Part shown: piece after piece, positions 617-45,600 of the stretch
How positions within the stretch are numbered: position 1 is the stretch's first letter
Layout of the letters: the number at the start of each line of letters is the position of its first letter
Origin: Cucumis sativus
Lineage: Eukaryota; Streptophyta; Magnoliopsida; Cucurbitales; Cucurbitaceae
Length of the DNA: 64,000 nt
Reading direction: 5' to 3'
Assembly: GCF_000004075.3 (NCBI RefSeq)
Contig: NC_026659.2
Span: 2,356,001 to 2,420,000, forward strand
The notes under the pieces: generated by a model
What the model saw: only the letters and a program-made list of their open reading frames with translations
What the model was told of the DNA's origin: nothing
Databases searched by the model: none
Made by a program: the position numbers and the translations under genes

Positions 617-3600
617 CTAACCAAGCCCTGTTCCATCATCCTTGCGAGGTGCATCAGCCTTAATGCGAGCTGGCCTAGCTATACGGTCAATAAGTCCATA
701 CTCAAGAGCTTGCTGCGCATTAAATCGCTTAGTTCCACTCAAGTCCTTGTGAATCTGCATTTATCCATTTATAAAAAGTCTTTAAGTTAAGGTTGTATTT
801 TTCAAAAACGTTTTCAAATCAGTACAATGTAAGATTCACAACTCAAAATTCAAATTTGGTGTTTGCGAGCTATGTTGCAAGTTCGTAAAAGCTCAAGACT
901 AATAAACCAAAAAAGTCATGTTGGTTATCTCACTAGTAGCAAGAGTAGCTCAAGATTAATAAACCAAAAAAGTCATGTTGGTTATCTCACTAGTATCAAG
1001 AGTAGGTTTTGTCATGAATGAAGATATTATTATATATTTATATGCTATGGTGCTGAGGAACCGACCTTTTCAACAGGCTGGCCTGTTTTCTTAGAAAGCT
1101 CATCAAAAAGATAATCCCTGATTTTTAAGAGCTGGTTTGCTTCATTTTGAATATCATCAGCCTGTCAAGACGATTTTCAAACAAAAATGTAACAGAACAA
1201 AATGTTTAGAACTTAACAAGGCAATACATGATCAATGTGTGTGACGTGATATAACAAATTAATGATACCCGGCCACGAGCAGATCCGGCTGGGGATTGCA
1301 AAGCAATTCGTGATAGTGGCATAGCAGAGCGGTTACCCTGGACAAGGAAAGGCGTGGTAAGATTTAAAAGAGATAAAAAGGAAGGAGACAGTTAGGCAAA
1401 AGGAATGAGCATTTCCAATTTTATTTAATGCAAATAAAGAGGTTGAGATTTATCTTATGAAGTTGCATAAGATATGTTTTGATGAATATGAATGATGTGA
1501 CTGATTGAAAAAATAGTGTTCACGTTTAATATATCGAAAAACTCCCTACAAAATCCAACATTTCTTTAACAATAATTGAATCTGTATACCTTTTCTCCAG
1601 CTGCTAGAAGAAAGGCTGCCATATTATAGGCCTGACCCATACAATGTGTAGCTATAGGACTCTTCAAACTTTGCATTGTATCGTAGAGGGCCAAAGTTGG
1701 AGTTAGCTGCAGAGATGCAAGGTTTCATCAGAAAACTAATAATACTAAATGAACCACTAGAATATAATTGAGAGAACAGAAAATATAAAGGATAAATATG
1801 GTGGAGCGGATCCAAATAAAAGATATAAATTTGTAAACATATTTAACTCACATCTCCACCTGGGCCATTTATGTAAATATAGAGTTTCTTGGAAGCTTCA
1901 ACGCTGTCAAGATACAGCATTGTTGCCAAAATTTGATTGCTAAACTCTTCATCAACGTAATCCCCAATGAAGATAACTCGTTCTCGATACTGAACACAAG
2001 AAAAATCGTGAGGTTATAAAAGTTCGGTACTTTATATATTTATTTACCAAAAAGTTGGTTTTTATATTCAGAGATTCTAGCCAAAAGAATTAAATTTGGT
2101 ATAAATGGACAGGAAAGAAAATAAAGGCAATAATGTAACAAAATGATAAAACCAACAGCAGCATCTTTCTACTGTGAAAAATACACTGATGCTAATAGTA
2201 AATTTTGTGGTAACTTAATTGTAGGAAACTCGTGTCGTGGCTGATGAGTCTCATAATGTCAAACTGAAATTCTGCTCAGCCTTAGTCAGAGCCAAAATTA
2301 CATAACTAGATCTATCACTTACCAGTGCATTCCACAAATCAACCCATTGCCAAAATCCCTCCCCAGGAGTTTTGTAAGGCACCCTTGGAGTCCCTATAGG
2401 CATCATCTGAAATTGTGCACGAGCAGCCTTTTTGTTATTTGTCCTGCATGTAAAGTAATGAATTAGAAGAAACACATTAACTGCCAGATGAATGCACGTT
2501 GCAACAGAAACACCTCTTTTAATTGCTCTTCAACTTTGTAGTCCTTACAGATGTCATTGACACAGAAAGCACCAATCAGTAGAATCAAAATGTAGGAAAT
2601 AAAGATTTTGAATGGAAAATGTAGGAAATAGCAGGCCCCGTTTGATAATGATTCTTTTTTTAATATATATATATACACACACATATATTGTGCTTGACCA
2701 TTGTTCCTTGAGTATGATTTTCAAATTTATTTAAAAAAACATTTGAATTCTTGTCAAATTTCAAGAAGAAAATTAAATTTTTAGAAATTAAAGAAAGGTA
2801 GTTTGCAAAAACTTGTTGGTCTATTTGAAATTTGGCTAAGAATTCAAATGTTTCCATAAGAAAGATGAAAATGATTGTAAAGAGAATTTGAGAAAACAAA
2901 CATAAATTTGAAAAACAAAAACTAAATGGTATGTCAATCAGGGCTAAATGTTTACAAATAGTTGCATAATATGTATGTATCTATTGTATGAAAATCACAG
3001 CTTTCGTTGAGAATAAAAATGAAAGAATACACAGGCATACAAAAAATCAAGTCGACAAAAAGAGGAAACTCCCTTTACAAGAAGGGACTCCAACTATGCG
3101 AGGTAACACCTATAAAATAATTACATAAAATTATTGAAATCGAAGTCCTAAGATAAACATGATAATGATCAAGGGACCACACCTCTCTAAGATCCCTTTC
3201 CATTCGCCTAAACATCTTACTGTTACATTCACCCCATAAAACCCAGAGAACTGCACACACTCAAGCAAGCCAGAGAAATTGGCCTTTCTCTCCAAAAGAC
3301 AGATCGAGGAGGAACTCCTCGGTCATAAGGTATGACCATGTTATGATAAATTTCAGCACACATCCACTGTCCGTCAAACACTCGGATTCAGTAACTGATG
3401 GGAAAGAAATGATATCCAAAAGAAGTAGTGCAATTCCCATATTCAGTTAGAACAGGAATAAAATCGATAGTATTTTCTGCACGCCACCCACTATAAGAAA
3501 AGATTTCAAGTCAATCTCTCCTTAGTCTAGCATTTATGTCACATGATTTTTCAAACAGGAAAACGATACTATTTCATGAAGGAAACAAATGAAACATTAT

Positions 3601-4181
3601 GTATAAATAGTCATTATATATAGCAACCTAGGAGCTAGCAGTAATAAAGGAAGAAATTTTAGCAAGATAAATATATTTTAGGAAGAACGAGAACTTAAGA
3701 ATAAGCATAGAATGTCATGAAGGTCCAAGAACTCTAATTGATTAATATCATCAGAATTTAGTTCCAAATGCAAAACAGGATGCAGGCTTAGCTAAAGCTA
3801 CAATTACCTGGTCTGCAAACTTTTGTGAACTTTTCCATAGAATTCAGCAGTAATATTAGGTTTTGCTCCTCCGAATGGACCTTAAAATTTGAAAGAAAAA
3901 AACAAACAAACAGATACCATAAGTGAATAACAAGCAGTCAAACAGATGAGTAACAAGCATCAAGAAAAGGAAGGGAATGGAAGCTCACTAGCTGATTGAG
4001 GCTTTAATCCCGTGTAAACCTTGGTTGCAACGCTAGCAAAATTCAGAAACCCGAAACGAAATCAGGTAAGCGGTGAGAGTAGCATAAAGATAAACTGATA
4101 ATCGGAAGAGAAGGAAAACCTGAGAGAAGGCTGAGAAACTTTGATTTGAGGTTGAAGACAAGGAATAGAAGTGACTGCCAT
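617..4181 (-). CDS. CLPR2: ClpR2, non-catalytic subunit of the plastid Clp protease
   Basis: This subunit assembles with ClpP and ClpR partners in the chloroplast-stroma Clp core that degrades unfolded proteins. Nine exons join in frame (minus strand): 4181-4120, 4032-3989, 3880-3808, 2443-2323, 1989-1852, 1706-1590, 1337-1269, 1161-1066, 754-617, giving 285 aa. All junctions are GT-AG. The first two exons are Ser/Lys/Gln-rich and fit a transit peptide. Exon 4 has the ClpR2 signature [11 protein letters not shown] and [10 protein letters not shown]. The ClpP fold follows ([25 protein letters not shown]). All three catalytic positions are replaced: Asn stands where the Ser of GxSxA should be (AYNMAAF), Leu replaces His (RIALQSP), and Lys replaces Asp (GTKRF). 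That is the ClpR condition. Length matches the Arabidopsis protein (about 279 aa from memory). The start is the first ATG of a frame that splices cleanly. Site II-like motifs lie upstream. Confidence 0.96.
891..1006. repeat. 57-bp tandem duplication in CLPR2 intron 8
   Basis: Two near-identical copies of a 57-bp unit beginning gctcaaga start at 891 and 948 and differ at few positions. They lie wholly inside the intron, so the protein is unaffected. Confidence 0.85.
3000..3490 (-). mobile_element. 3'-terminal relic of a non-LTR (LINE) retrotransposon
   Basis: On the minus strand a 61-codon open frame (3260-3075) reads [16 protein letters not shown], then [13 protein letters not shown] and a closing SWSPFL just before a stop. 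This is the usual C-terminal end of plant LINE reverse transcriptase ORFs (zf-RVT end, 'LWxLWxERNxRIF...W'). Further upstream (to about 3490) the frame is broken. Downstream, the minus strand reads into a tail resembling LINE 3' UTRs (TTTTTGTATGCCTGTGTATTC, then TTCATTTTTATTCTCA). It is a 5'-truncated dead copy in CLPR2 intron 3, in the gene's own orientation. The family call is by eye. Confidence 0.65.
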
Positions 4182-21457: not shown

Positions 21458-22559
21458 GCAATAGATTGTCCTTAATAAATGTTCCTATTTTCAACCGTAA
21501 AAAGATATTGTTTGCTACTTTGTTTGGATTTCATTTTTTCTTCTTTCTCAAAATTGGTGCTTATACCAAAAAAGTGCTTCTTCGTATAAAAGTTCTATAT
21601 TTCTATTTTATTTTATTTTATTTTTAAAAAAGTGTATTTATACAAAAACAATTAATTCTTTCACCCCCTTTTCATAGGAAAAAAATATTATTACTATATG
21701 AGGTCATCATATTTGTAGGATTCTTTAAATAACTTTTATTTGACTTGACTCCTTTTAATATCATAATAATCAATATCAATAATACACTTTTTATAATTGG
21801 TAGAAGGATAGCCCTAATTAAATATACTATCAAATTATAATTAAAAAGTCCGTTTCTATTAAAGAAAAAATATAAACTCTTAAATTATTATTTTAATAGT
21901 ACATGTTTGAGATGTAAACTATTACGAGATAAAATTAATATAATATACAAGATTTATTTTTCACAAACATAGAAAAATCAATCTCAAAAATGAAAATAAA
22001 AAATAATCGGTAGAAGGAAAAGAAGAAAGGAAGAAATGTGTCACGTTGTATTTGTTCGACTTTTTGAAAACATTTTATTTTAACTTTTGGTAGTCAACTA
22101 TGCCCCCTTGAAATTACAAAATCTCTTATTTACCCCTATGGCGTCTAAATCATATCCCAATAACCACATGAACAAAATGCCACAAAAAAAACCTCCCTTT
22201 TTATTTTTCTAATATTATTGTTTTTTTCCCCCACAAATTTTGGCCTAAAGTAATTCTTCCATTTAAATTTCAAATACTTAAGGGATGTTTTAGCTTTTTC
22301 TTCTTTTGACCCATCCCTATCCAACCTTATAAATTTAACTACATATTAATAATCTTTTTTTAATAAATTATATGTTTATGAATCTGATCTTTAATCTGTT
22401 CGTAGCTTAAAAAGAATATATGTTTTCCTGCCTTGAGAAATTTTTATGTCAAAATAAATACTAAATATTTTTCTAATATAAAAATCGTGGAAATGGAGGT
22501 AGAATTTTCAAATTTATCAAAGTTGGACCTACAAGAATGTGTATATATATATATATAAA

Positions 22560-22870
22560 CACACATATCTTTTAGGTTAAATTATAAAATATATTTATAA
22601 ACTATGTGGTTTGTGTAAAAAACACTCATAAACTTTAAAAGTTTCAAAAAATGTCTTTAAACTTTTAAGAATGGTTATAAAATACTTCGTTAGTTTTGGA
22701 TGGAAATCGTTAAAGTTTTGTTCATAAAATACTCAACATTATGAAAAAATTTCATAAATACCTTTAATTTTTTTTAAAAAAAACTTTCATAAATCCAAAA
22801 GTTACACCAAAATTGTTAGCAACCAAAATAAAAACAAAAATTTTAAGTTAAAACATTTTTCACCTTTTCA
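22560..22870 (+). repeat. Dispersed repeat family B
   Basis: It shares the words gttaaagtt, ataaatacctttaa, caaaataaaaacaaaaa and ttttaagttaaaa in order with 44.80-45.01 kb, and in reverse with 45.35-45.59 kb. There is no coding capacity. It is probably a non-autonomous element or its decayed end. Confidence 0.5.
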
Positions 22871-24599
22871 ACAGTAGAGGTGAATCCTATATTTTCGTTA
22901 CATCTTATAAAATTTATAAACCACAATAAAATAAATATCAATATGACATTAATAAATATAATATAAATAATAGCTATATTTACTTCAATTTTAGGTTTTT
23001 ATTTTATCTTAGAATTTAGTTGAAGAAAAATAAATAAATAGAGAACCATTATTTATATAAAAAAAAACAATAACGAAATATAATATTTACAGTCTACATG
23101 AACGATTTAGCCACTTATAATTTCAACCTCCAAGTTGATATTTTCAATTATTACCATCTACAATGAACTTACTATATTATTATTTAAAATCTCTCTCTTG
23201 TTATTTCTAATAGATGTTAAAATAGTTCCCTACAAACAATTAACAACCAACAAACTACCATAATTTCACCCTTTTAATTTAGTTTAAACTTTCATTGGAC
23301 AAAAATTAAAAACCATGTTAGTAAAATGACAATTTTTTTTATCAACAAAATTTTCCATTTTTAAAAAAACTATTTATCCAAAAGGGTTGGCTCCTCCCCA
23401 ATCACTCATAGGATGTTTTTTTAAAAATAAAAGGAAAGAAAAAGAAGAAATCTAACTAAAGAAGGTCAAGAAAAAAAAATGGAAGGAAAAAGTAAAAAAT
23501 GTGAAGAGGGAAAAATGAAATAGAAGGAACAGTGAAAGTATAAAGTTCCATTATGAGAAGCTATTATTAATAACCTAATTTAAATCCAACTTGACTTTGT
23601 GAAAGAAATCATTTCCAAAGCCTTTTTTTTTATAATTTATTTAAAATAAAAAAAATAAAAATAAAAAATCAAATTAATGACTTTATTATAATGTTTTTTT
23701 ATAAATATAATAAATATTTAAGAAAGGAAATGAAAAAGAAAGAAACAGACAAAGAAAAGGATACCCCACAAAGACCCACAATAAGAAGACCCAACAACAT
23801 AAAGAAATTAAATTAAAATTAAAATAAATAAACTTTTATTGTTATTATTAATTATCTTTTTTGTTTTTTGAAATTAAGAAAAACATGAATTGAAAAGATT
23901 CATAAACATTAAAATAAAAAAACGAAACCCCGTAATGCGCGTGAATTACACTATCCAATCAGGAGAGATTCATAAAGTATACAAAATACACATTACATTT
24001 CACAATCTTCTCCTACCTGAGATTAACATCCTAATCCAATATTATATTAAATTAGTATCTACACCACCGTTTTTCAATCAATATTTATACCTTTCAACTT
24101 TCAACAAAAATATATAATCTATATATCCATTATATCTTTAAATCCAAACATCTTTCCATATTCATTATCCCATACGTATTTCTCGTAACATTTACTTAAT
24201 TTTCAATCTAAATAACTTTTATAAAATTTGTGTCTTTTTAATATTTAAAATCATCGTTACGGTGATACAACCGGTAAAATATTTACTAATGTGAATGAGA
24301 TTATATAATTTTGAAAAAGATAAAATATTTAATTAACGAATTTAAACCTTAATAGCCTTTAAATATTGTTTTTTTTTTTTTTTTTTTTGTGTTATTATTT
24401 GTGGTTATATTGAGACATAGAAATTGATGTAAATAATTTGTAAAACATAAAAAGTTTGATTAGAGGATAGTAAAAAAAAAAAAAAATTTAAAAGAAAAAA
24501 TTTCCCACGGGCATGAACTTGAGCGTAGGCGCGTGACATTTAGAAACACACAGATCTCTTTTCTCGTCTCGGTCTCCTTATTTCTCCTCCTCGTAGTGT

Positions 24600-24608
24600 T
24601 TTATTCTC
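24600..24608. repeat. Left 9-bp target site duplication of the MULE
   Basis: TTTATTCTC directly abuts the left GGGG terminus. The identical 9-mer follows the right terminus. A 9-bp duplication is diagnostic of Mutator-like transposition. Confidence 0.93.
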
Positions 24609-24720
24609 GGGGAATTGACAAAAATAGGCCAAAAATGGGGTAGAAATAGAGTTTTAGGATTGATTGTAAAAAAGTTGAGATTTAGGATAAATTGGAGGTG
24701 AAATGACGAAAATACCCTCT
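24609..24720 (+). repeat. Left terminal inverted repeat of the MULE
   Basis: It aligns with the reverse complement of the right end over roughly 105 bp. The first 20 bp differ at two positions; similarity then becomes patchy, with indels. Confidence 0.85.
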
Positions 24721-24839
24721 TTTATTTTCCTTTCTCTTTTCTTCTTTTTCCTTTTCTTCTTTTTCCTTTTCTTCAACCCGAAGACAGAAGGCCGTTCAAA
24801 AGAAAAACGTAAACCAGAGCATTTGAACTCTCCCGCGTC

Positions 24840-25139
24840 TGCAGTTACCCCCTTCAACTCTCTCCCGCCTCTGGTGAACGTTTTTCTCTTCCGTCCATTT
24901 CTTCTCCACTTCCATCCATTTCTTCTCCACGACTCTCCGCTATATTTTCCGATTTCAACTTGTTCACGGAACGTCTCCATTTCTTCTGCACGGGTCTCTG
25001 TTTTACTTTCGACTTCATCTCCGGCGGACGCTTCTCCACTTCCATCCATTTCGATTTCAGGTTTGTTTTCACCGGACCTCTCCATTTCTTATCCACTCCT
25101 CTACATTGGCAGTGCCGTATCCATCATCTTTGAAGTCAA
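24840..25139 (+). other. Leader-like GC-richer arm of the MULE
   Basis: This C/T-rich stretch repeats the word cttccatccatttc three times (near 24.91 and 25.04 kb) and ends at a GTGAGT donor-like site. It is open in one frame (24703-25143), but the translation is low complexity, so I read it as 5' UTR-like rather than coding. Confidence 0.4.
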
Positions 25140-25532
25140 GTGAGTAATAAAATCTCAGTTTTTTTTTAGAGTTAGTCTGTTGTAGCTTATTTATTATTAC
25201 AGTATTCCATCTTGTTTGTTTAAGTTGTCTGTTGAGATGTGAGTTTTTTGTTTTTGGCACATTTTAGAGAAGAAATGCATGTCATATGCACACAGACATA
25301 GAGAACCGTGGGAGCCATTCTGTTTTTAGGAAGAAAAACCATTTCCTTTGCAATGTACTGTAATAATAGAAAAACCATACCTTGGAGTTTAGAACTTGAA
25401 TTCGAACATATATTTGGTATCCCATATAAACTCTGCAAAGTTACCAGTACAATAGATATGTGCTAAACATGCATTCTAAAGATTGTATTCTAAAGACATT
25501 ATCATAAGCTGCATTGTTGAAAGACCATTTCC

Positions 25533-26450
25533 TTTGCCTTGAATTTTTCCATCATCTCACACCTATCAGCACCTATCTCTCACCTTCCAAAATTTTGAGT
25601 AGAAGTCCCAATATAAGAGTGTTAACTTCCTAAACCGTTTAGAATGCATGTTTAGCTAGTCTACTAGGTGTTAAGGCTTTAGGGTTAGCAATTGTATTAG
25701 ACTTAGCAACTTTGCCTTGAAGTTTTCCATCATCTCGCACCTATCAGCACCTATCTCTCACCTTCCAAAATTTTGAGTAGAAGTCCCAATATAAGAGTGT
25801 AAACTTCCTAAACCGTTTAGAATGCATGTTTAGCTAGTCTACTAGGTGTTAAGGCCTTAGGATTAGCAATTGTATTAGACTTAGCAACTTTGCCTTGAAG
25901 TTTTCCATCATCTCTCACCTATCAGCACCTATCTCTCACCTTCCAAAATTTTGAGTAGAAGTCCCAATATAAGAGTGTTAACTTCCTAAACCGTTTAGAA
26001 TGCATGTTTAGCTAGTCTACTAGGTGTTAAGGCTATAGGGTTAGCAATTGTATTAGACTTAGCAACTTTGCCTTGAAGTTTTCCATCATCTCTCACCTAT
26101 CAGCACCTATCTCTCACCTTCCAAAATTTTGAGTAGAAGTCCCAATATAAGAGTGTAAACTTCCTAAACCGTTTAGAATGCATGTTTAGCTAGTCTACTT
26201 GGTGTTAAGGCTTTAGGATTAGCAATTTTATTAGACTCACCTTCCAAAATTTTGAGTAGAAGTCCCAATATAAGAGTGTTAACTTCCTAAACCGTTTAGA
26301 ATGCATGTTTAGCTACTCTACTAGGTGTTAAGGCTTTAGGGTTAGCAATTTTATTAGACTTAGCAACTTTGCCTTGCAGTTTTCCAGCATCTCGCACCTA
26401 TCAGCACCTATCTCTCACCTTCCAAAATTTTGAGTAGAAGTCCCAAGATG
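25533..26450. repeat. 178-bp minisatellite inside the MULE
   Basis: Copies begin at 25533, 25711, 25889, 26067 and 26368, anchored on tttgccttg. The first three intervals are exactly 178 bp. The fourth (301 bp) holds one full unit and one shortened by 55 bp. The last copy is cut off at about 26450. Units are highly similar (shared words gagtagaagtcccaatataa and aatgcatgtttagctagtct), so the array is young or homogenised. It lies between splice-like sites and would be intronic. Confidence 0.95.
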
Positions 26451-26515
26451 CTAGTGCATCCATGTTTAGTAAGTCTCTTATGCAATTATATTTAATTAGT
26501 TTTTTTTTTATGCAG

Positions 26516-27080
26516 GTTTCAGTATGGCTTCGACATCAACTAACGGTCCCATGTACAAGATTGACCCTGCTCATCATTTTCAGTCTATAGTAAGTAGTTT
26601 ATCACATTTAGTAAGCAGGTTGACTATGTTGTCGGATCAAAACAAGACTGTCAAGATCCTTGGGTGAATGTTGATTACATTTACTCTCCATTCAATATCC
26701 ATGGCAATCATTGGATTCTATTATGCTTGGACTTGGTACGTTGTCAAGTTAAGGTATGGGATTCGCTTCCGTCGCTGACGAGTGCCGAAGATATGAGAAG
26801 CATATTAGAGCCAATTCAAGAGATGGTGCCAAATTTGCTCGATGCTACTGGATTCTTTGTTAGGAGAGGCGGATCATCAACACACAAGGAACCTTGGCCA
26901 CTTGTCATTGTCGACTCCATTCCACTTCAACGCAACAATAGTGATTGTGGTGTATTTACAATTAAGTATTTCGAATATGAAGCTTCTGGTTTAGATGTAG
27001 CTACATTATGTCAAGAAAACATGTCATATTTTAGAAAACAATTGGCATTTCAATTATGGACCAACAATCCCATGTATTGA
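26516..27080 (+). pseudogene. Ulp1-like (C48) cysteine protease domain carried by the MULE
   Basis: The C-terminal catalytic domain of a Ulp1/SENP-type SUMO or ubiquitin-like protease is open from 26619 to 27080. Catalytic positions are all present: His in GNHWILL, Asp in KVWDSLP, Cys in NNSDCGVF, and the oxyanion Gln in PLQRNNSDC. The last residues are QLWTNNPMY. Upstream, an ATG at 26524 opens a 22-codon stretch in the same phase (MASTSTNGPMYK...). A 29-nt insert that begins GTAAGT and ends GCAG (26590-26618) breaks the frame. That is too short for a plant intron, so the unit is probably a decayed fragment of a longer MULE-borne gene. The domain call is firm; coding function is doubtful. 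Confidence 0.82.
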
Positions 27081-27599
27081 CTTTTAGTTCCAAACTTTTG
27101 AAGGAATTGTATATGTTCCAAACTATGTACATAAATAGTTTTATATAATGGAATGAATACCATTTTTGTTTTTTGGTATGCAATTTTTATTTCATTATCT
27201 TGGAAAATTGTAAAGTGTGCAGAACTTTTATATAATGTACAACAATGCAGGTGAGAGCAACATTCTCATGCTCTTAGAATTAGGAAGGCCAATTTATCCC
27301 ACAATGTATGAAAATGGAGAGAGATGAGAGAAAAATGAAATATTCTTTTTGGAAGTGAGAAAATGGAGAAAATGGTTTTCAAAGGCCGGTGGAGACCATG
27401 GGAAGAGCTTGAGAAAGAAATTTCAAGAAAACGAATTAAAGAATGGAAAAGGAAGAAAAAGGAAATTTCGTGAAAATGAAACACCAGAGGGAGGGATGAG
27501 AGAAAAATGAAACATTTTTAGAAAGTGAAAAAACGGAGGGAGAAGGAGAAGGAGAAGAGAGGATTCATAAATTGATTTTAGGATATTTTTTAACTTGAG

Positions 27600-27707
27600 G
27601 GTAATATAGACTTTTTCCAACTAATTTGTCCTAAAAGTCATCTTTTTTAAAATTCATCTCAAAACTCTTTACATCCTTCCAAATTATCCTATTTTTGATA
27701 ATTCCCC
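27600..27707 (-). repeat. Right terminal inverted repeat of the MULE
   Basis: This is the counterpart of the left TIR, read on the minus strand. It ends in CCCC at 27707. Confidence 0.85.
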
Positions 27708-27716
27708 TTTATTCTC
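27708..27716. repeat. Right 9-bp target site duplication of the MULE
   Basis: TTTATTCTC is identical to 24600-24608. Removing the element and one copy would join ctcctcctcgtagtg...tttattctc to ctcctgaatttcg. Confidence 0.93.
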
Positions 27717-27832
27717 CTCCTGAATTTCGTCTTCAAACAGTTTGAAAAAACTTATTTCATATCAATCACTGAATCCCCAAAAACTGACCCTTGACCCTTT
27801 TTCCCAAAACCCCCGGATCACCGGCCTCCGCC

Positions 27833-27904
27833 ATGGGAACTCGCCGGAAATTCCAGCGGCGGCTCCGGCCGGTTCAATGCACTCGACAATCACGAAGAAG
27901 TTAG
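27833..27904 (+). promoter_or_regulatory. Upstream ORF in the leader of the hAT-like gene
   Basis: An ATG in strong context (gccATGg) opens a 23-codon frame, rich in Arg (MGTRRKFQRRLRPVQC...), that stops 99 bp before the main ATG. A second uATG at 27877 (18 codons, ending 27933) and a third near 27922 overlap or follow in other frames. If the leader is transcribed unspliced, scanning ribosomes would meet all three first. The peptide itself is not recognised. Confidence 0.5.
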
Positions 27905-28003
27905 AGGGGGGGCAAGGAAAAAATGAAGTCTAGATCCTGAAAAAGAAACAGGGTGTTCGAAAATTGTTGAAAATTCAAAGCTTTTTTTTTGGGGGGGGCG
28001 GCA

Positions 28004-30373
28004 ATGGCGGCTACGAACGCGTCTACTACAGCAGCAGCAACGGCAGCGGCTCCGGCAGTGGAGAGTGGGAGTTCCTCAGCTGATGAGGTGACTGCTAAAG
28101 CCGTACAGAAGCGATACGAAGGACTGGTAATGGTACGGACGAAGGCTATAAAGGGTAAAGGGGCTTGGTACTGGGCTCACCTCGAACCCATCCTCGTCCA
28201 TAATACTGACACTGGTTTGCCCAAAGCCGTTAAACTCAGGTGTTCTTTATGCGACGCCGTTTTCTCCGCCTCAAACCCTTCTCGAACCGCCTCCGAGCAT
28301 CTCAAACGCGGCACTTGCCCCAATTTCAACTCCCTCCCTAAACCCATTTCCACTGTTTCCCCTTCTTCCTTTCTTCCTCCAACTCCCACTTCTCCACCGC
28401 CTCTTCACCATTCCAATAACCGCAAACGGACCTCCTCCGCTGTCGCCGCCTCTTCCGGCGACCGCGCCGGAGGTGGCGGGTCTTCTTACCAAGTCCCACC
28501 TCTTGCGATTGTGGATCCTTCACGGTTCTGTGGGGAACTGACGTATTCACCGTCGGTGGGGGTGAGCGGTGGCGGCGGAGGTGGGGGCTTGTTGGGGCAG
28601 CAGCCGCATTTGATGCTGTCAGGGGGGAAGGAGGACTTGGGAGCTTTGGCTATGTTGGAGGACAGTGTGAAGAAGTTAAAGAGTCCAAAAACTTCACCCG
28701 GGCCAACGCTGAGCAAGACGCAGATTGATTGTGCAATTGATTTTCTTGCCGATTGGGTGTACGAATCCGGTGGCTCTGTGTCGTTTTCGAGCTTGGAACA
28801 TCCTAAATTCAGGGCATTTCTTAACCAAGTTGGACTACCTGCAATCTCTCGCCGGGATTTTACAAATTCCCGACTGAATTCGAAGTTCGAGGACGCTAAA
28901 GCAGAGTCTGAAGTTAAGATTCGAGATGCTATGTTTTTCCAGCTCGCCTCCGATGGGTGGAAGGACAAAAACTACGCCGTTTTTGGCATTGATAAGCTTG
29001 TGAATCTCACTGTGAATCTCCCTAATGGGACTAGCTTGTACCGGCGGGCTGTGTTCGTGAGTGGCTCTGTTCCTTCTTCTTATGCTCAGGAAATTTTGTG
29101 GGAAACCGTCGCTGATATCAGTGGGAATGTTGTTCAACAGTGTGTTGGGATTGTAGCAGACAAGTTCAAGGCTAAGGCATTGAAGAATTTGGAGAATCAA
29201 AATAACTGGATGGTTAATCTCTCTTGTCAGTTTCAGGGTTTTTCCAGTTTGGTTAAGGATTTCAGCAAACAGCTCCCATTGTTCAATAGTGTCACTGAGC
29301 ATTGTATGAAGCTGGCTAATTTCGTTAATTACAAGTCTCAGATTCGTAATTGTTTTCATAAAGTTCAGCTGCAAGAGTACGGTAATGCCATGTTACTCCG
29401 CGTGCCACCCCGTAACCACGAGAAGCTCAACTTTGGGCCTGTCTTCACGTTAATGGAAGACATTCTCAGCTTCTCTCGAGCTCTGCAGCTGGTAGTACTT
29501 GATGAGACCTGGAAAATCGCTTCGGTGGACGACCCGATAGCGAGAGAAGTTGCGGAGTTGATTGGGGATGTGGGATTTTGGAATGAATTGGAGGCCGTTC
29601 ACTCATTGGTTAAATTAATAACAGACATGGCTGTTGAGATTGAGAAAGAGAGGCCACTAGTTGGGCAATGCCTTCCATTGTGGGATCAACTGAGGGGGAA
29701 AGTCAAAGATTGGTGTTCAAAATTTCAGATTGCTGAAGGTCCTGTTGAGAAAGTGATTGAAAAGAGGTTCAAAAAGAACTACCACCCGGCTTGGGCTGCG
29801 TCGTTTATCCTCGATCCATTGTATTTGATAAGGGACACAAGCGGGAAGTATCTCCCACCATTCAAATGCCTGACTCCTGATCAAGAGAAAGATGTGGATA
29901 AACTCATAACCCGGCTCGTGTCGAGTGAGGAAGCTCACATTGCATTAATGGAGCTTATGAAATGGAGGACAGAAGGGCTTGATCCAGTTTATGCAAGAGC
30001 TGTGCAAATGAAAGAAAGAGACCCTATAACTGGGAAGATGAGAGTTGCTAATCCACAAAGCAGTAGACTTGTTTGGGAAACTTATCTTACAGAATTCAAG
30101 TCCTTAGGCAAAGTTGCCGTGAGACTCATATTCCTTCATGCCACTTCCTGTGGTTTCAAATGCAATTGGTCTTTGTTGAGATGGTTGTCTTCTCATACTC
30201 ACCAAAAGGCTGGTATGGATAGGGCACAGAAGTTGATATTCATTTCAGCACATTCGAAGCTCGAACGGAGGGATTTTTCCACCGATGAAGACAAGGATGC
30301 CGAGCTATTCTCCCTAGCCAATGGTGAGGATGATGTGCTTAACGAAGTCTTCGCGGATACATCCTCGGTGTAA
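28004..30373 (+). CDS. Domesticated hAT-type protein: BED zinc finger and DUF659
   Basis: It is a single exon of 789 aa. The open frame extends to a TTG at 27989, but the first ATG is at 28004 in good context (gcaATGg). The N-terminus is Ala/Ser-rich. A BED-type finger follows: Cys80 and Cys83 in RCSLCDAVF, His99 and Cys105 in EHLKRGTC. A Pro/Ser/Thr and Gly-rich linker (SGGGGGGGLL) leads to DUF659 (FRAFLNQVGLPAISRRDF; IRDAMFFQLASDGWKDKNYAVFGI; VQQCVGIVADKFKAKALKNL) and a C-terminal region like a worn hAT dimerisation domain. No TIRs or 8-bp duplication flank it and the frame is intact, so it is a host gene. From memory it resembles Arabidopsis At1g12380/At1g62870. The likely role is DNA binding in the nucleus (inference). 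A MULE sits 296 bp upstream. Confidence 0.92.
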   Translation: MAATNASTTAAATAAAPAVESGSSSADEVTAKAVQKRYEGLVMVRTKAIKGKGAWYWAHLEPILVHNTDTGLPKAVKLRCSLCDAVFSASNPSRTASEHLKRGTCPNFNSLPKPISTVSPSSFLPPTPTSPPPLHHSNNRKRTSSAVAASSGDRAGGGGSSYQVPPLAIVDPSRFCGELTYSPSVGVSGGGGGGGLLGQQPHLMLSGGKEDLGALAMLEDSVKKLKSPKTSPGPTLSKTQIDCAIDFLADWVYESGGSVSFSSLEHPKFRAFLNQVGLPAISRRDFTNSRLNSKFEDAKAESEVKIRDAMFFQLASDGWKDKNYAVFGIDKLVNLTVNLPNGTSLYRRAVFVSGSVPSSYAQEILWETVADISGNVVQQCVGIVADKFKAKALKNLENQNNWMVNLSCQFQGFSSLVKDFSKQLPLFNSVTEHCMKLANFVNYKSQIRNCFHKVQLQEYGNAMLLRVPPRNHEKLNFGPVFTLMEDILSFSRALQLVVLDETWKIASVDDPIAREVAELIGDVGFWNELEAVHSLVKLITDMAVEIEKERPLVGQCLPLWDQLRGKVKDWCSKFQIAEGPVEKVIEKRFKKNYHPAWAASFILDPLYLIRDTSGKYLPPFKCLTPDQEKDVDKLITRLVSSEEAHIALMELMKWRTEGLDPVYARAVQMKERDPITGKMRVANPQSSRLVWETYLTEFKSLGKVAVRLIFLHATSCGFKCNWSLLRWLSSHTHQKAGMDRAQKLIFISAHSKLERRDFSTDEDKDAELFSLANGEDDVLNEVFADTSSV

Positions 30374-44799: not shown

Positions 44800-45600
44800 T
44801 CTCTCAACTTTAACGTCAAAAATAAAATTTTAAAAAGGCTCAAATTATCTTTATGTTTTGAATAAAATCGTTAAAGTTATATTTTACATTGAAATATTAA
44901 AAATTTACATAAACACCCTTAAACTTAAAAGAAAAAATTTCATTAATCCAACTTTTACACGTTTTAGTAAGCAAAATAAAAACAAAAACTTTAAGTTAAA
45001 ATCATAATTTTAAATTTTCATCATATATGCGGATATTTCTAGTAGTAGGTTCTTATTTCCATGAGTTTGATAATGATAGAAGGTCGGGTAACTTTGATAT
45101 ATCAATCAACAAAAATATTTTAAACCTCGGCTAAAACATAAAATTTCACAAAATCTCGTAAAAAAAATTATCCTTAAACATATTATAACAATAATAATTA
45201 AATAATAAAAAAATTTACCATATGTGTTAATAATCAAATACATTTTTTATTTGACAATTAACTATATGTCAATTACAAGTATAACAATTGAGATTGATAT
45301 TAATAGTCAAATAAATTCAAAATTTTGGTCAACTTAAAATTTTGATTTTGATTTTGATTTTGGTTCGCACAAAATTGGTGTAAAATTTGGTTCTAAACTT
45401 TCCTTCAGCTCAAGGGTTTTTTTTAAAAAAATTCAATAATTCAGTGGTATTTTTTAAACAAAATATTATAGATTTTCATCCAAAACTTTAACGGTTTCTG
45501 TCCAAAACTAATGGTAAGGGTATATTTAAAGCATTTTAGAAAAGTTAAAAAAAAAATTATATATATTTTACACAAACATCAAAGTTCAGAATCACGTTTA
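44800..45600. repeat. Inverted pair of family B repeats (possible MITE-like unit)
   Basis: The left arm (44.80-45.01 kb) matches 22.56-22.87 kb in direct orientation. The right arm (about 45.35-45.59 kb) matches it inverted (tcaacttaaaattttg; ccaaaactttaacg). Together they make an 0.8-kb unit with an AT-rich centre. No target duplication could be confirmed. Confidence 0.45.

Follow-up and report, generated by a model that had tools for sequence, protein, structure and literature searches.

A non-autonomous CsMULE-family transposon upstream of the cucumber gene LOC101211194, and phased octamer arrays as candidate anti-silencing targets

The element and its neighboring gene

We analyzed a window of 64,000 nucleotides, C5:2356001-2420000 of the 226.6-Mb Cucumis sativus genome, in which a non-autonomous CsMULE-family element precedes LOC101211194, a conserved gene for a DUF7963/hAT-like protein (Table 1). 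A first-pass annotation had described a MULE with both ends intact, a perfect 9-bp duplication and about 105 bp of inverted repeat, located 296 bp upstream of a host start codon. Our analysis bears out this description: the target-site duplication (TSD), TTTATTCTC, is perfect at 9/9 positions, the terminal inverted repeats (TIRs) measure 111 bp per end with 83 identities over 116 aligned columns (71.6%, score 67), and the end of the element at 27707 lies 296 bp from the ATG of LOC101211194 at 28004. None of 500 shuffles reached the score of 67. As a control, the best score among 472 random 250-base pieces of the window was 58, and this piece probably owes its score to a C/T-rich tract adjoining the terminal repeat.

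Table 1 Features of the locus (positions in the window)
Feature	Position	Strand	Basis
GC-richer, C/T-rich block, candidate old promoter or leader of LOC101211194 (putative role)	24500..24599	+	measured as 24500-24608
Left target-site duplication TTTATTCTC	24600..24608	.	read from sequence
CsMULE-family element, non-autonomous	24609..27707	+	3,099 bp; ends and sister copies C4:3955060 and C1:21592181
Left terminal inverted repeat, 111 bp	24609..24719	+	83/116 aligned columns identical
Predicted leader intron (GTGAGT ... TTATGCAG) of the element's plus-strand gene	25140..26515	+	sequence; arrangement as in L069
Tandem repeats in leader intron: 178 bp x 4.0 (25532-26237), then 123 bp x 2.0 (26113-26360)	25532..26360	+	
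Stretch with all nine ATCTC[G/T]CA octamers of the element	25575..26417	+	
DUF1985-Ulp1 gene start, out-of-frame fusion by internal deletion, 47 codons and stop	26524..26667	+	
Ulp1 (Peptidase_C48) exon remnant, open frame without ATG start	26664..27080	+	PF02902, E 3.4e-24
Right terminal inverted repeat, 111 bp	27597..27707	-	alignment with left end
Right target-site duplication TTTATTCTC	27708..27716	.	read from sequence
LOC101211194, 789-aa DUF7963/hAT-like protein	28004..30373	+	ORF, protein matches

While the termini are intact, the interior of the element is defective. The window copy tracks a 9,157-bp relative, L069 (C2:9403169-9413100, TSD AAAAAAGAG), from the left end through the leader, the intron repeats and the first codons, and then jumps from L069 position 1611 to 4005, within the DUF1985-Ulp1 gene. 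The copy retains its two ends as well as the leader and the 178-bp repeats of the intron, and of the DUF1985-Ulp1 gene only a frame-broken remnant. No MULE transposase was found in the window copy, either among its open frames or by comparison with L069, which has a transposase of its own; the window copy is accordingly classed as non-autonomous. We rejected the view of it as a coding element since the fused frame ends after 47 codons. Direct descent from an L069-like copy was likewise not supported, as the right ∼450 bp are not in L069 and belong to another end subtype.

The neighboring gene appears to encode an unaltered protein. Isoforms X1 and X3 of LOC101211194 match the window ORF at 100% over 98% and differ from it at the C-terminus only. 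The protein carries the precomputed label DUF7963 (PF25908), and no Pfam family was found in it up to E 5. A melon protein is 99% identical to it, the 120 listed of 844 matches are mostly eudicot or unnamed proteins at ∼70 to 80% identity, and the cucumber genome has two paralogues, at 61% and 63%. The same initial methionine was present in six proteins (the window ORF, X1, X3 and those of melon, wax gourd and Cucurbita moschata), and an altered protein start was not seen among these proteins and gene models. With the coding start unchanged, any effect of the insertion would therefore fall on the leader, on expression or on methylation.

A DUF1985-Ulp1 gene and phased octamers in the larger relative

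L069 carries what the window copy has lost. Its minus strand contains an 810-codon open frame with the Pfam domains MULE, DBD_Tnp_Mut and SWIM of a MuDR-type transposase, its plus strand contains frames with DUF1985 and Peptidase_C48, and its ends are 90.6% inverted-identical over 159 columns. Joining seven exons of the DUF1985-Ulp1 gene at predicted GT-AG sites, all of them multiples of three, gave a protein of 804 aa with both DUF1985 (PF09331, 6.5e-15) and Peptidase_C48 (PF02902, 2.4e-28). Melon proteins align with the cucumber protein at 57 to 67% over 99 to 100% of its length, which supports the predicted seven-exon structure, and cucumber gene models match parts of the 804-aa protein at 99 to 100%. 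DUF1985 and Ulp1, as predicted here within one gene, are the domain pair of the VANC/KIU anti-silencing genes.

In the VANDAL elements of Arabidopsis, VANC proteins (DUF1985) are reported to bind short noncoding motifs and to cause loss of methylation; the bound motifs form tandem repeats, among other places in VANC introns and upstream of VANA (PMC5735166, PMC10398659). KIU genes are described as Ulp1-bearing VANCs (PMC13317346). The CsMULE family likewise pairs a DUF1985 gene with a transposase and has Ulp1 as in KIU, and the placement of its repeats agrees with that described for VANDAL21, whose short-motif tandem repeats lie in introns of VANB and of VANC as well as upstream of VANA. Two differences stand out against the published descriptions. 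VANDAL TIRs are described as degenerate whereas those of CsMULEs are long, and the octamer of CsMULEs (below) is unlike either the VANC21 motif YAGTATTAY or the VANC6 motif AGTTGTCC/AC. We therefore rejected the class VANDAL in the strict sense, with degenerate or absent TIRs, for elements with 111-bp TIRs and, in L069, ends at 90.6% over 159 columns. TIRs and an Ulp1 domain are also combined in other Ulp1-bearing MULEs and in CUMULE of melon (van Leeuwen 2007, as cited in PMC5299730 and PMC2528002), the latter compared here by description; the window copy differs from these elements in that it encodes neither whole protein. In a literature search run without the octamer as a term, we recognized, among the papers listed, none that links VANC-type anti-silencing to cucumber transposons.

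The repeats of the leader intron contain a recurring octamer. Units of 178 bp were found in 2.0 to 8.0 copies in 15 loci (Tandem Repeats Finder; some arrays are cut by the locus end); the arrays of L005 (C6) and L006 (C3) are expanded to eight copies each, whereas the window copy has four and L069 has 2.4. Each unit holds two ATCTC[G/T]CA octamers, 21 bp apart. Nine such octamers occur in the window copy and two in the remaining 60,901 bases of the window. L069 has 10, of which the intron array holds six; the other four lie upstream of the transposase, and among these, three are spaced at 11- and 22-bp steps. The octamer is absent from the coding sequence of both L069 and the window copy. In a word-enrichment analysis of L069 noncoding DNA, GCGAGAT/ATCTCGCA came near the top (7-mer, 4 observed versus 0.1 expected), together with further enriched words; the exact octamer ATCTCGCA has four sites in L069, all upstream of the transposase. 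Sasaki et al. in 2022 reportedly described anti-silencing in eudicots with targets of helical periodicity.

Genome-wide, we found 482 pairs of the form ATCTCGCA-N{2,14}-ATCTCGCA (10-22 bp spacing) compared with one for the reversed control, although multiple copies of the same transposons account for many of these pairs. Spacings of 10, 11, 21 or 22 bp account for 476 of them, and only 6 fall at 12 to 20 bp (control 1). Among 100 pairs listed, 48 were spaced by 11, 34 by 22 and 18 by 21 bp, in 23 distinct strings. The sequence ATCTCGCACCTATCTCGTACACATCTCGCA occurs at five C1 places (594923, 3417377, 5340830, 7968583 and 18867627) far from the listed transposase or DUF1985 matches (compare L085); these are perhaps a non-autonomous family carrying the phased array.

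We hypothesize that the phased octamer arrays are VANC-type targets. Under this proposal, CsMULEs would run a VANC/KIU-type anti-silencing system in which ATCTCGCA arrays with helical phasing, located both in the leader intron of the DUF1985-Ulp1 gene and upstream of the transposase, are read by the DUF1985-Ulp1 protein, while gene-less copies keep the array and are de-silenced in trans. This proposal is a tentative one, and we judge it somewhat less than probable. The phased octamers could instead be a mere minisatellite carried by a few transposon families, with no protein reader, and we see the chances of this as evenly balanced. An 11-bp tandem repeat would by itself yield 11- and 22-bp spacing. 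Nor was the motif block conserved above the rest of the 178-bp unit when we tested for this: across 24 distinct units (101 in all), 106 of 139 windows of 31 bp were less variable than the motif block, which is more variable because one octamer position is G or T. A minisatellite would also be in keeping with the L069 unit and the transposase-upstream region, which have no repeated octamer in common. The unit of L007 does have ATCTCGCA in common with the transposase-upstream region, but some repeated word was shared in 398 of 2,000 shuffled units (102 of 2,000 for words with three or more different letters). The 178-bp-unit region and the transposase-upstream region may be distant copies of one unit.

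Three observations argue against a mere minisatellite. All 10 octamers of L069 are noncoding and sit in the intron array or upstream of the transposase. Phased pairs also sit in varied flanks, as seen in 20 small regions (16 C1 clusters and four of the six off-phase places), although the exact search fixes the octamer and the variety of linkers is thus partly a matter of ascertainment. Lastly, 14 of 37 ATCTCGCA-pair clusters on C1 have a listed DUF1985 or MULE transposase match no farther than 10 kb away, whereas 2,000 random C1 placements averaged 1.0 such cluster and never exceeded 5. This contrast is overstated, since random placement ignores transposon crowding and several clusters among the 14 belong to CsMULE copies.

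Family copies, recent mobility and the likely effect on LOC101211194

The window element belongs to a sizeable family. The whole element as query gave at least 113 matching pieces (best 40 of 435 candidates scored), its first 152 bp at least 41 matches, 40 of them at 98 to 100% including the window (best 40 of 344), and its right 453 bp at least 40 matches (best 40 of 221), of which at least 25, the window included, matched at ≥94% over at least positions 1-448. These counts are lower bounds, with the best 40 candidates scored per query. A search for the transposase returned 28 matches at the same score (77.6 bits), 16 of them with the 810-aa frame, and at 11 of these 16 loci a family-like DUF1985 match lies within 6 kb, from a set of 20 such matches chosen by score (58.2-60.2 bits).

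Some of the matches have a local context of their own. L032 and L033 (C4:12785721 and C4:12698409) share their match pattern and lie 87 kb from each other; they look more like the products of a segmental duplication than like two insertions. L025 (C6:13738010-13738127) is an 81% inverted copy of the left end, 20 bp past the left end of the C6:13737990 copy, and is a neighboring or nested relative. Window positions 45091-45527 and 22617-22854 match the flanks of L007, outside its CsMULE-like element, at 68 to 81%, and are probably an unrelated dispersed repeat.

Upon comparison with its closest relatives, the window copy was found to differ at 3 of 3,098 aligned bases from C4:3955060 (99.87% identity), at 6 of 3,097 from C1:21592181 (99.71%) and at 11 of 3,069 from a third close copy on C6. 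The C4 and C1 copies each have their own 9-bp TSD, and a single-copy or old insertion was rejected on the basis of these near-identical sister copies. A perfect 9-bp duplication was present in seven of 10 copies whose flanks were compared (the window copy, C4:3955060, C1:21595278, C3:9804087, C7:14079256, L069 and C4:643788). The duplication of C7:11795275 is 8/9, that of C6:2238684 merges with a terminal G run (5/9 by script), and the right end of C6:20174093 was not found in this comparison.

The first-pass annotation had read the perfect duplication as a sign of a fairly recent event. The event does appear recent, and it is the near-identical sister copies, not the perfect TSD alone, that carry this point. 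When the window copy is set against those at C4 and C1, none of the substitutions is private to it and its only private change is a 1-bp indel, which implies a young insertion; the C4:3955060 copy has three private substitutions. Assuming a plant substitution rate of 7e-9 per site per year, the window and C4 copies split ∼69,000 years ago, and at the same assumed rate zero private changes place an upper bound near 138,000 years. Cucumber and melon separated millions of years ago, and an empty site is therefore predicted in melon. Taken together, the window element is a young member of a known family and ordinary in kind; its value lies in a family that looks recently active and is linked to a trait.

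The surroundings of the element suggest what the insertion may have done. A GC-richer block at about 24.50 to 24.60 kb had been put forward as the original promoter or leader of the gene; the block itself is real, at 46% GC and 63% C+T in 24500-24608 (109 bp through the left TSD), with 15% GC upstream at 24300-24499 and 23% at 22000-24000, while its old role is a putative one. The 287 bp past the right TSD (27717-28003) are 47% GC. This base composition fits a LOC101211194 leader that was split by the insertion. We propose that the element was recently moved by the transposase of a relative and landed in the proximal promoter or 5′ leader of LOC101211194. There it would introduce parts of its own gene, namely leader, intron and 3′ end, in the orientation of the host gene. 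Because these parts are added in the same direction, the native promoter has probably been parted from the coding sequence. The likeliest effect would be lower or methylation-dependent expression, by analogy with the CsMULE in CsMYB60 described below; in the main alternative, LOC101211194 would be transcribed from a start within the element or within the 296 bp that remain. The first-pass annotation had suggested that the gene may now begin in the element or be spliced from it. Overall, we consider it likely that this non-autonomous CsMULE (MuDR-type, TIR, Ulp1-carrying) lies in the leader or promoter of LOC101211194 and cuts off the promoter, leaving the protein unchanged.

The insertion could also be neutral, with LOC101211194 starting in the downstream 296 bp or with the element spliced out or read through harmlessly. 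This would agree with the gene-like composition of the 287 bp after the right TSD and with the NCBI gene model, whose isoforms X1 and X3 exist despite the insertion. However, the leader-like C/T-rich block is on the far side of the element, and the element, which reads in the orientation of LOC101211194, places 59 sense-strand ATGs and the 3′ end of its own gene in between. We thus regard a neutral insertion as the smaller, though still appreciable, possibility and favor the loss of the native promoter.

A copy at C4:636794-643788 connects the family to a known trait. This copy is 6,995 bp long, has its left end at 643788 and carries the TSD AAGTTTCTT on both sides; its flanks encode an R2R3-MYB, as named from translated motifs, with exons 1 and 2 on one side of the copy and exon 3 on the other. 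Its left end is shared with the window element (C4:643638-643788, 99% over query positions 1-151). CsMULE as published (GenBank MG558001) measures 6,994 bp, is flanked by a 9-bp TSD and interrupts the second intron of CsMYB60, a gene of the distal short arm of chromosome 4; it has TIRs of 117/115 bp and a MuDR-like transposase, and 9930 is reported to carry it (PMC6305189). We take the C4 copy to be this CsMULE on the basis of place, size and TSD. That it is a separate insertion, which would reduce the trait link to family resemblance, is very improbable: the 1-bp difference in length would allow it, but size, 9-bp TSD, second intron of an R2R3-MYB, distal chromosome 4 and presence in 9930 all agree. 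The window copy and this CsMULE share the 9-bp TSD, TIRs of ∼111 to 117 bp and the left end, and differ in that the window copy is 3,099 bp long, lacks a transposase and has the other right-end subtype.

By our count of the published Table 1, CsMULE is present in 11 of 22 lines, nine white-spined and two black-spined, and both black-spined carriers also hold a 2,759-bp insertion (PMC6305189). Within that table, the CsMULE insertion is therefore not always equivalent to the white phenotype. In the white line RNS8, lower CsMYB60 expression and higher promoter methylation were reported (PMC6305189). The 2,759-bp insertion, listed there for RNS14 and RNS15, is close in size to the 2,752-bp copy at C7:14079256-14076505 and may be another CsMULE. 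Some of the published lines carry the insertion and others do not, which suggests movement of the family within cucumber; the family looks recently active.

Implications for promoter variation and a possible escape from silencing

Through CsMYB60, the CsMULE family is linked to an allele of horticultural relevance, that for white spines (PMC6305189), and 16 places in the genome hold an 810-codon transposase frame with equal domain score; the family has therefore probably contributed to recent promoter variation in cucumber. What could be new here are the phased octamer arrays. The window copy, although gene-less, keeps its repeat array, through which elements of this kind may escape silencing. 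If the anti-silencing reading is true, host genes with promoter copies, such as LOC101211194, would answer to the anti-silencing factor of a transposon. The octamer is short enough for direct binding and methylation tests. To our knowledge, the VANC-type mechanism is known only from experiments in Arabidopsis; if the octamer arrays are VANC-type targets, its range would come to include a MULE with TIRs in a crop plant.
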